Shown one piece after another: positions 7,095 through 47,459 of a DNA stretch of 64,000 bases. Position 1 is the stretch's first letter. Each line of letters begins with the position of its first letter. The stretch is from NCBI GenBank assembly GCA_003134435.1, contig PLBE01000053.1, positions 36,672 through 100,671 of the forward strand, in the 5' to 3' direction. Under the pieces are notes generated by a model. The model was given only the letters and a program-made list of their open reading frames with translations. It did not search any database and was not told where the DNA came from. The DNA comes from Acidobacteriaceae bacterium. GTDB taxonomy: Bacteria > Acidobacteriota > Terriglobia > Terriglobales > Acidobacteriaceae. The position numbers and the translations under genes are program-made.

Positions 7095-8315
7095 GTGCAG
7101 ATTCTGATCTCAGCCGGCGAAGCCTCCGGTGAAATGTATGGCGCACAGTTGATGGAGTCGTTGCGCAAGTCTTTAGTCCATCCTGCCCCTGTGGTGACGG
7201 GGCTTGGCCCCGCCTCGACACAACCTGCACAGCTTGAGTTTTTCGGCGCTGGAGGAGAGCGCATGCGCGCCGCCGGCTGTGAAATCATCGTCGACGCCAA
7301 GGATCTGGCCGTTGTCGGCATCACCGAAATTCTCAGTCACCTGCCCAAAATCCTTGGCCTCTATAAGAAATTGATTCGCGCCGCCGATGAGAAACATCCG
7401 GCCCTGGCCATCGTCATCGACGCCCCAGCCTTCAACTGGCGCGTAGCGCGTCAGATGCGCCGGCGCGGCATCCCAGTCGTCTATTACGTCTGCCCGCAGT
7501 TCTGGGCGTGGCGCCAGGGACGCGTCAAGCTGCTGCGCAAGTATGTCAACCGGGCGCTGGTGATTTTCCCGTTCGAAGAGAAGTTCTATCGCGATCGCGG
7601 AGTGGAAGCGACCTTCGTCGGCCATCCCCTGGCCAATCAGCCCGCGCCGGCCGTTACGCGCGAATCCTACGCGACTCAAAACCAGCTCGATCCCGCGAAA
7701 CAGTGGATCACGATCATGCCGGGCAGCCGCCGCAAAGAAACGCGCATGAACCTGCCCACGATGCTGCTGGCGGTTGAGCGGTTGGAGATAGAGAGCCCCC
7801 ACGCGGGTTATGAATTTCTGCTTCCAGTGGCGCGCACCCTGGATGCGACGTTTCTCAGGGACTTGATCGCGACCCCGACAAAGTCGCGGCCAGCCTCGTC
7901 TTTACACCAGAAAATTCACCTGGTGCCCGACGCGTTGCCCGCACTGTATCACTCCCGCGCCGGCATCGTAGCCAGCGGCACAGCCACCGTGGAGGCGGCT
8001 CTCATGGGCGCTCCGTTTGTCATGGTGTATCGCGTATCCAGCCTGACCTATGCCTTGGGCAAGCCACGGGTCAAAGTTCCTTATTTCGCCATGGTCAACC
8101 TGATTGCCGGGGAGGAGGTTGTCCAGGAACTGGTGCAGCACAGGTTCACTGCGGAAAACATCGTTACCGAGATGAACAAGATCATCCCTGATGGCGCTCC
8201 GCGAACCCGCATGATCGAGCGCCTGGCGACGGTGAAGGCGAAAATGCAGGGGAACAGCAGTGCCGCAAATCCCCCAGAAACCGCGGCAAGGATCATCCTG
8301 AAAATGATCGGGTAA
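7095..8315 (+). CDS. lpxB: Lipid-A-disaccharide synthase
   Basis: The protein begins with the LpxB hallmark ILISAGEASGEMYGAQL, then FFGAGGERMRAAGCE, FWAWRQGRVK and FVGHPLANQ, and near the C-terminus ASGTATVEAALMGAPFVMVY. The enzyme (GT19) joins UDP-2,3-diacylglucosamine and lipid X in the cytoplasm during lipid A synthesis. The frame is open back to 7020; I chose GTG at 7095 because the family starts with M-x-ILISAGEASGE and a TACAAT box lies 6 nt upstream; ATG at 7053 is the alternative and overlaps the exporter stop. About 21 extra residues (26-46, SLVHPAPVVTGLGPASTQPA) interrupt the first helix-strand junction and contain a GC-rich inverted repeat in the DNA. At about 406 residues it is slightly longer than usual. 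Confidence 0.93.
   Translation: MQILISAGEASGEMYGAQLMESLRKSLVHPAPVVTGLGPASTQPAQLEFFGAGGERMRAAGCEIIVDAKDLAVVGITEILSHLPKILGLYKKLIRAADEKHPALAIVIDAPAFNWRVARQMRRRGIPVVYYVCPQFWAWRQGRVKLLRKYVNRALVIFPFEEKFYRDRGVEATFVGHPLANQPAPAVTRESYATQNQLDPAKQWITIMPGSRRKETRMNLPTMLLAVERLEIESPHAGYEFLLPVARTLDATFLRDLIATPTKSRPASSLHQKIHLVPDALPALYHSRAGIVASGTATVEAALMGAPFVMVYRVSSLTYALGKPRVKVPYFAMVNLIAGEEVVQELVQHRFTAENIVTEMNKIIPDGAPRTRMIERLATVKAKMQGNSSAANPPETAARIILKMIG
7170..7232 (+). repeat. Repeat-like in-frame insert within lpxB
   Basis: These 63 bp encode residues 26-46, which have no counterpart in the usual LpxB N-terminus. The DNA contains CGGGGC (7198-7203), a 3-nt spacer and GCCCCG (7207-7212), a perfect 6-bp hairpin. 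The length is a multiple of three so the enzyme frame is kept. Confidence 0.5.
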
Positions 8316-45819: not shown

Positions 45820-47274
45820 TTAAGGCAGGGGGAACTGGCGGGCCAATAGTTTCAGCGCCGCGTCGTGGGAGGTGATGCGGCCTTCCAGTTGCGCATCTTC
45901 GATGGCGGTCAGAATTTCTTTGAAGCGGGGGCCGGGTTGATAGCCGGCTGCGATCAGGTCGCGCCCGGTAATCAGCGGAGTGGGCCGGATCGCTTCGGGC
46001 GGGATCGAACGCAACTGCTCGCGCGAATACTCGTAGGAGTCGAGATTGCCGTGGCTGGAAAGGCAGTCGAGGCGGTGCAATTCCAAGTGCTCGTCGAAGG
46101 CGGACAGGCGCAGAAACTTCTTGAGCGTCGATTGCTTCATGCGCTGAACGTCTCCAAAGCGCATGTGATTGTCGATTAGAGCCAGAATCTGGCCGGTCTC
46201 GTGGTTGGAGAAGCGCAGACGGCGGCAGACTTCGGCGGCCATTTTCACACCTACATCCACGTGTCCATCGAAGCGGATGCGGTCGGGCGCGATGCGGAAA
46301 GTAGGCGGCTTGCCCACGTCGTGCAGCAGCGCTCCCCAGGCCAGGGTCTTGGAACAGCCGGCAGGAAGCTTTTCGAGCAGCAAGAGTGTGTGCACGAAGA
46401 CATCGCCTTCGGGATGGTGCTGGGGGGACTGCCCGACTGCTTTCATCGCGGCGATTTCCGGCAAGACTTCGAGTAGGAGGCCGGTTGTATCGAGCAGTTC
46501 GAAGGCTTGGCGGGCGCGGCCCTCGGTGAGCATCTTCGTGAGTTCTTCGCGGACCCGTTCGCGGGAGACCTGTTGAATTTGGGGAGCAAACTTCTGGATT
46601 GCCGCCATGGTGGCGGGTTCGATCTGGTAGTCGAAGCGGGCGGCGAATCGCACGGCGCGCAACATGCGCAGTTTGTCTTCCGCGAGGCGGCGGCTGGGAT
46701 CGCCGATGGCGCGGATGATCCCGGCCTTCAGATCTTCGCGGCCGCCGACAAAATCCAAAACCTCGTTTGTTTCTGGATCGAGCATCATGCCGTTGATGGT
46801 GAAGTCGCGGCGCTCGACGTCTTGGCGCGGGTCTTTGGTAAAGCGGACATGGTCGGGATGACGGCCGTCCGAGTAGCCTACATCGGAGCGGAAAGTCGCC
46901 ACCTCGACAGACTTCTGCAGAGATGTCGGCAAGAACAGGTAGCGCTGTTTCAGCGATCCGCCCATCGCGCCCGGTAGGGCTCGCCCCTCGAAGGAGTCGG
47001 TTCGCGCAGGTTCGTCGCCTTCGTGTTCCTTCGTGTCCTTTGTGGCATCAGTGTGGAAGGGCACCAGAACGACTCCGAATTGCTCGCCTACGGCGAAGGT
47101 CTGGGGGAAGATTCGCATGACCTGCGGCGGAGTTGCGTCGGTGGCTACGTCGTAGTCGGCGGGTTCGCGGCCGAGAAGAAGATCGCGGACGCATCCTCCG
47201 GCGAAGTAGGCCTGGTGGCCGCGTTGACGGAGGGTGCGGACGATCTCCGTGGCGAGTTGTTTTGCGTTAGACAT
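45820..47274 (-). CDS. cca: CCA-adding tRNA nucleotidyltransferase with HD domain
   Basis: The 484-residue protein has the class II nucleotidyltransferase head (AYFAGGCVRDLLLGREPADY, then DYDVATDATP with the catalytic D-x-D), the RRDFTINGM motif (RxDF(T/A)IN), LRMLRAVRFAARFDYQIEPA and an HD domain (GALLHDVGKPPTFRIAPDRI). It adds or repairs the 3' CCA of tRNA. A roughly 49-residue insert (about residues 74-122) separates GVVLVPF from VEVATFRSDVGYSDGRHPDH, which are usually nearly adjacent. Confidence 0.93.
   Translation of the reverse strand: MSNAKQLATEIVRTLRQRGHQAYFAGGCVRDLLLGREPADYDVATDATPPQVMRIFPQTFAVGEQFGVVLVPFHTDATKDTKEHEGDEPARTDSFEGRALPGAMGGSLKQRYLFLPTSLQKSVEVATFRSDVGYSDGRHPDHVRFTKDPRQDVERRDFTINGMMLDPETNEVLDFVGGREDLKAGIIRAIGDPSRRLAEDKLRMLRAVRFAARFDYQIEPATMAAIQKFAPQIQQVSRERVREELTKMLTEGRARQAFELLDTTGLLLEVLPEIAAMKAVGQSPQHHPEGDVFVHTLLLLEKLPAGCSKTLAWGALLHDVGKPPTFRIAPDRIRFDGHVDVGVKMAAEVCRRLRFSNHETGQILALIDNHMRFGDVQRMKQSTLKKFLRLSAFDEHLELHRLDCLSSHGNLDSYEYSREQLRSIPPEAIRPTPLITGRDLIAAGYQPGPRFKEILTAIEDAQLEGRITSHDAALKLLARQFPLP
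46909..47055 (-). repeat. Repeat-like in-frame insert in cca
   Basis: These 147 bp encode HTDATKDTKEHEGDEPARTD, then a second part (SFEGRALPGAMGGSLKQRYL and following). The plus strand contains TTCGTGTTCCTTCGTGTCC (within 47021-47039), a direct repetition of TTCGTGT(T/C)C that looks like intergenic boilerplate rather than coding sequence. Confidence 0.5.
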
Positions 47275-47389: not shown

Positions 47390-47459
47390 CCTTCAAAGAA
47401 GTTATGAAGCGCGTCGTCGAAAGCCAAAACAGCCAAGAGCGAACAGCGAACAGCTAATT

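Follow-up and report, generated by a model that had tools for sequence, protein, structure and literature searches.

The cca gene in the window analysed here, a stretch of 64,000 nucleotides, carries a long in-frame segment inside the nucleotidyltransferase head of its product, and this raises the question of where such a segment comes from and how an essential enzyme can accommodate it. The initial annotation placed a 49-residue insert directly before VEVATFR, and its coordinates proved exact, being confirmed by orthologs and by Pfam alignments (Table 1). It also proposed that the insert stems from repeat-like DNA and must be tolerated by the enzyme, two claims that hold in part and are taken up below.

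Results

The window belongs to a 5.75-Mb draft genome of 261 contigs (G000 in the comparisons with congeners). On the basis of motifs, domains and fold, its cca frame is predicted to encode a class II CCA-adding enzyme; it has a motif A (GG-x-VRD...DxD), a motif B (RRD), a motif D (EDxxR) and a mostly helical body, and Pfam and NCBIfam assign a PolyA_pol head, an RNA-binding domain and an HD domain. The fold, the domain order and the DxD, RRD and EDxxR motifs are common to the window Cca and the class II enzymes 1miv, 6ibp/7otr and human 4x4w. The G26-D31 motif, D40, D42, R155-D157 and E199-R203 are conserved in 47 orthologs. The named orthologs nearest to the window Cca carry the labels Acidobacteriaceae and Candidatus Sulfotelmatobacter, which makes the genome an acidobacterial one. 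Between cca and a divergent tsaD-like gene, positions 47418-47458 hold a low-complexity string of the AGCCAA/GCGAACAGC type that resembles non-coding boilerplate.

Table 1. Position of cca, of the parts of its insert, and of in-frame repeat copies in other genes
Feature	Position	Strand	Description and basis
cca	45820..47274	-	Intact frame of 484 aa; predicted tRNA nucleotidyltransferase (CCA-adding enzyme) of class II; ORF, Pfam, NCBIfam, fold match to 1miv and 7otr
49-residue insert (residues 74-122)	46909..47055	-	Beta-hairpin turn linking strands 4 and 5 of the head, disordered in the model; ortholog comparison, AF2
Repeat T copy (CCTTCGTGTTCCTTCGTGTCCTTTGTGG)	47018..47045	+	One arm of the usual inverted pair; minus-strand reading (A)TKDTKEHEG
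Rest of insert, 109 nt	46909..47017	-	Encodes DEPARTDSFEGRALPGAMGGSLKQRYLFLPTSLQKS; no dispersed match
GEQF, residues 63-66	47077..47088	-	Counterpart of human GEKH, the beta-turn that positions the primer
AtpG, G008	L277:719-1852	+	In-frame X copy; family model
RecG, G008	L301:1-2205	+	In-frame X copy; family model
PrmC, G008	L267:711-1631	-	In-frame X copy; family model
MetH, G001	L338:758-2500	-	In-frame T copy, about 9 residues; family model

The insert (HTDATKDTKEHEGDE...LQKS) stands between FGVVLVPF and VEVATFR, and the alignments of Cca with Pfam and with solved CCA enzymes are interrupted at this position; the enzymes of Bacillus stearothermophilus and Planococcus have few residues between the two aligned segments, whereas the window Cca has 49 extra. 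In the AlphaFold2 (AF2) model of the protein, which has a mean pLDDT of 90.5, the insert connects strands 68-72 and 122-127, and residues 77-107 score below 50. In the human CCA enzyme, the 3' end of the primer is positioned by a beta-turn, GEKH, between strands 3 and 4 (PMC7730189). Since the counterpart of this turn in the window Cca is GEQF, the model places the insert at the opposite end of strand 4. The K89 insertion tested in the same study presumably falls in the insert's own turn.

The ortholog comparison found the insert present relative to the other orthologs and common to one genome only: it is complete in the sister genome G016 (93% nucleotide identity; 89% amino acid identity for Cca) and was found in no other congener. 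A protein identical to the window Cca, encoded at L061 (PMBA01000182.1), was not counted separately because it probably comes from the same genome. The turn has 4-6 residues in most enzymes of other orders, with G038 and G050 as exceptions; in all members of the genus examined it is longer and strongly different between species. It is the most length-variable segment of Cca, with 0-45 residues between gap-free columns, followed by a segment with 0-20. In a tree of the remaining Cca protein, the window genome and G016 form a sister pair (100/99), as do G004 and G010 (92/94), and G029 falls in another group. The relatives are draft or metagenome-assembled genomes. The cca gene of G013 (L053) has an apparent frameshift immediately behind VEVATFR, where a frame of 103 aa is followed by a separate one; this is either an assembly error or a real break.

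The duplicated TTCGTGT(T/C)CC motif, which the initial annotation regarded as typical of non-coding boilerplate, is indeed present in the insert. Positions 47018-47045 read CCTTCGTGTT CCTTCGTGTC CTTTGTGG, that is, about 2.8 head-to-tail units of 10 bp, and the motif is not expected by chance, as it was seen in 0 of 100 shuffles of the window. The window genome holds one perfect copy of this 28-mer, named repeat T here, which is the copy inside cca, plus one with three mismatches; matches to a short 16-mer of T at two mismatches are not clearly above the reversed control. Congeners hold tens of matches (44 in G001, 36 in G003 and 29 in G023), T is present in 30 of 60 genomes of the family against 0 matches for the reversed-letter control, and of 101 copies sampled just one is in an open coding-like frame, compared with about 64% of random positions. 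T is therefore a true dispersed family found mainly between genes, of which the window genome has a single good trace, the copy in cca. Many copies form inverted pairs about 20 bp apart, and the pair that was folded gives a long hairpin; T measures 28 bp as an arm and about 80 bp as a pair. The view of the motif as non-coding boilerplate is thus borne out in congeners, where it is mostly intergenic, but not in the window genome with its one perfect copy. The initial annotation had named two observations that would speak against it, absence of the motif elsewhere in the genome and conservation of the insert in the whole phylum; the former nearly holds, and the latter does not.

T makes up 28 nt of the 147-nt insert, about a fifth, and for this part the proposed origin from repeat-like DNA stands. 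It does not extend to the further 109 nt listed in Table 1, for which no dispersed family was matched, whether among 24 congeners or among 298 genomes of the order, and an origin of the whole insert from one dispersed element was rejected because the match is confined to the T segment. The one recurrent match concerns positions 46953-46973, which are identical over 21 nt, and in the same frame, to the GAMGGS codons of a prolyl-tRNA-synthetase-like (proS-like) gene in several congeners; since this is a conserved proS-like coding site wherever it was read, the match is most likely a coincidence and was discarded as a source. We also considered a complete T inverted pair, in which a downstream CCTTCG could be a relic of the second arm, and rejected it, the fold being not clearly better than that of shuffles (z -1.3).

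Three further families, X, Y and Z, were obtained by reading palindromes in the loop DNA of orthologs and searching them as patterns genome-wide; because they are pattern-derived, all repeat copy numbers are approximate. X is a palindrome, GACGGGCG-N-TCGCCCGTC, with 93 copies in G008 and 48 in G004, one of them inside cca in each genome (C27:50048 and C72:39146, respectively), 173 copies in G010 and 7 in the window genome. In the loops, X appears intact or decayed, as (E/A)TGALARH-type peptides in G004 and G008 and as similar strings in G003, G006, G010 and G014. Y (CTTCGRC-N-GCTCAGGGCAGG) has 33 copies in G010, one of them in cca (C81:22799), and 27 in G029, whose cca loop also encodes Y (ACPERSRR). 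Z (GGTGACGGGGC-N-GCCCCGTC) has 8 copies in G017, one of them in cca (C136:15637), and 16 in G003; a first Z pattern, based on the other hairpin, matched only once, and the second gave the dispersed copies. The Z element of G017 folds as a stem with two hairpins (z -7.8), and CTCGCCCGTCAC beside it may be a remnant of X. In the window itself, a palindrome resembling Z at positions 7194-7215, GGTGACGGGGCTTGGCCCCGCC, differs from the Z pattern by one mismatch. All four families are dispersed in the carrier genomes or their congeners, with 0 matches for reversed-letter controls. For the long loops of G026 and G024, a dispersed source was rejected, being not supported in a sample of 0.26 Mb and weak in one of 0.39 Mb, respectively.

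No sequence relationship links the four families, and they entered the loop at different points. An alignment of G010 with its sister G004 revealed an exact 24-nt (eight-codon) in-frame insertion of Y inside X, with the empty site kept in G004, and the Y of G029 is separate from that of G010. The loops thus record at least five insertion events from four families, namely X, Z, Y in X, Y in G029, and T; we count at least five rather than ten because X may have entered once, in the common ancestor of G003, G004, G006, G008, G010 and G014.

All seven cca repeat copies tested lie in an open coding-like frame, compared with 5 of 39 sampled genomic copies of X, 0 of 20 of Y and the single T copy given above, against 58-64% of random positions in the same loci. 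It should be noted that the coding call is a simple home-made codon-usage test, applied to a sample of T, X and Y copies. Copies of these repeats are found mostly outside genes, but a single turn of cca has received four families. T and X are open in six of six frames, and the Y and Z copies in five of six. Four of the coding-like exceptions, in RecG, AtpG, PrmC and MetH, were called real genes on the basis of family models; in RecG of G008, about 30 residues stand between DEQHRFG and TATP, and the alignment with 1gm5 breaks there. The frame at L300 had no family match and was taken as spurious. Y lies near a Y1_Tnp (RAYT-like) gene in 4 of 30 loci (L236, L241, L247 and L251), on both sides of it in L236 and L241, which suggests that Y is probably mobilised by a Y1/RAYT transposase; T, X and Z were near a Y1 transposase gene in 0 of 30 loci.

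Outside the insert, cca diverges from that of G016 with a dS of 0.54 and a dN/dS of 0.1, and the insert shows 1 synonymous and 10 non-synonymous differences (counted on codons 73-121, which is one codon off). A simple vertical neutrality based on the whole-gene dS was rejected because codons about 60-206 form a low-divergence tract that covers the loop (permutation p < 0.001, windows of at least 80 codons). This tract, including the insert, suggests a recent homologous exchange between the window and G016 lineages. Relative to the neighbouring tract, first and second codon positions of the insert have changed about four times faster (10 of 98 differ versus 5 of 198; p = 0.009), and all insert sites together (11 of 147) are not different from third positions of the tract (13 of 99; p = 0.19), counts that are small and depend on how the tract is delimited. 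The insert thus changes at about the silent rate of the tract, a pattern that fits relaxed constraint with an open frame being retained. As to the claim that the insert must be tolerated, predicted disorder and this apparent relaxation indicate that it probably is.

Discussion

Based on these results, we consider it probable that the turn between strands 4 and 5 of Cca is a permissive, neutral safe harbour for short dispersed, mostly palindromic repeats in this family of Acidobacteriota; from sequences and models we infer that the loop is translated, is tolerated and does not alter activity. The turn, which seems able to accept nearly any sequence, would be structurally permissive, exposed and away from the active site, and repeat copies that happen to be in frame and free of stops would be kept as a disordered loop, while others would be lost. 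Because a loop of this kind would leave the enzyme working, such copies could persist, and each insertion would add dispensable sequence and so offer a larger neutral target for the next one, giving rise to nested layers. In the window lineage, a piece with one T arm would have entered the turn, and its being common to G016 was possibly aided by the recent homologous exchange.

The meeting of four families at one site, although repeats are rarely found in genes, together with the Y copies that flank some Y1 transposase genes, would also be expected if mobilised repeats favoured a sequence or structure at the cca site and tolerance were secondary. We regard such a target preference as unlikely, given that the families are unrelated in sequence and enter the loop at different points, and that no transposase was linked to T, X or Z across 30 loci. 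It is also conceivable that the loop is functional, in that repeat-derived, often charged sequence was co-opted to adjust how tRNA or some other partner is bound, while selection keeps the loop long in this family; no genus member examined has a short loop, and residues near the turn region influence the tRNA affinity of other CCA enzymes (PMC7730189). However, species have no loop sequence in common, the divergence of the insert is close to the silent rate around it and the loop is predicted to be disordered, which makes a selected role quite unlikely.

Ordinary drift in loop length, by slippage and small duplications, would make the likeness to dispersed repeats incidental, and the 109 nt of the window insert without a repeat source, as well as several congener loops without a recognisable element, agree with it. 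As a general account it is very unlikely, as it is faced with exact copies of elements that have tens of genomic copies and 0 control matches, and with a clean nested insertion whose empty site is known; it is contradicted for G004, G008, G010, G017, G029 and the T segment, and may apply to the rest of the window insert. Finally, all assemblies are draft, and repeat-rich contigs could have been misjoined inside cca, but the frame is kept in every case, the window genome and G016 both carry the insert at 7% divergence, and five further genomes have their own copies in intact frames, which leaves an assembly artefact extremely improbable.

If the safe harbour in Cca is part of a wider pattern, then in some Acidobacteriota several mobile repeat families would have settled time and again, one layer upon another, in permissive loops of essential enzymes (Cca above all, and RecG, AtpG, PrmC and MetH), amounting to a system-wide translated repeat load. 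We give this wider view an even chance; if it is true, such loops would serve the repeats as neutral safe harbours and would steadily supply the proteins with new disordered sequence. The cca loops provide a natural replicated experiment, in which one site of one essential enzyme has received different families in related species, and in which sites with and without a repeat can be compared. This makes it testable whether the insertions are neutral or adaptive and whether their recurrence reflects target choice or survival, and the Cca loop becomes a candidate permissive site for tagging CCA-adding enzymes.

In a broad sense, the cca copies are protein-coding repeat insertions: they are in frame in a conserved gene that has orthologs without the insert, and their families are dispersed elsewhere, mainly between genes in congeners in the case of T, X and Y, with Z dispersed and T nearly absent from the window genome. 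Such insertions were first described in Rickettsia, whose palindromic elements (RPE; Ogata et al. 2000, reviewed in PMC2229807) are 105-146 bp long and interrupt protein genes with housekeeping roles without shifting the frame. The R. conorii guanylate kinase with an RPE is translated and active, and repeats in protein genes of Wolbachia are also known (PMC2229807). Like RPE, the cca repeats are short, dispersed and palindrome-forming, have open frames, are inserted in frame and are apparently tolerated, but they are about 22-55 bp long and occur in Acidobacteriota, with at least four unrelated families at one site, some nested. Organism and size set them apart from RPE proper.

GTAG/CGTC REPs have been described inside conserved genes, including repair and RNA-modification genes, where flexible linkers or loops were suggested as their location, and different REPs occupy about the same recB site in two Xanthomonas species (PMC3733652). 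The main text of that study mentions no tRNA nucleotidyltransferase, and for Acidobacteria only transposase-flanking repeats of Koribacter. The stem-loops of X and Z begin with GACG and end with CGTC as CGTC-type REPs do, a feature of the X hairpin and of one Z hairpin, whereas T and Y have no GTAG or CGTC end tag and do not fit. Y resembles the REP/RAYT system in adjoining several Y1_Tnp genes, but its 22-nt copy does not fold stably. The enterobacterial small mobile sequences RU-1 to RU-3 are MITE-like units of 103-168 bp; like the cca repeats, they lie between genes, have open frames and also occur as in-frame fusions to genes (PMC2759123). The recurrent filling of one site by different families is not described in the parts of that account consulted. 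We found no earlier report for Acidobacteriota or for cca in the literature searched. In-frame repeats in protein genes are already known; what appears to be new is the unusually recurrent filling of one Cca turn by at least four families, and the phylum, apparently, is also new for protein-coding repeats.
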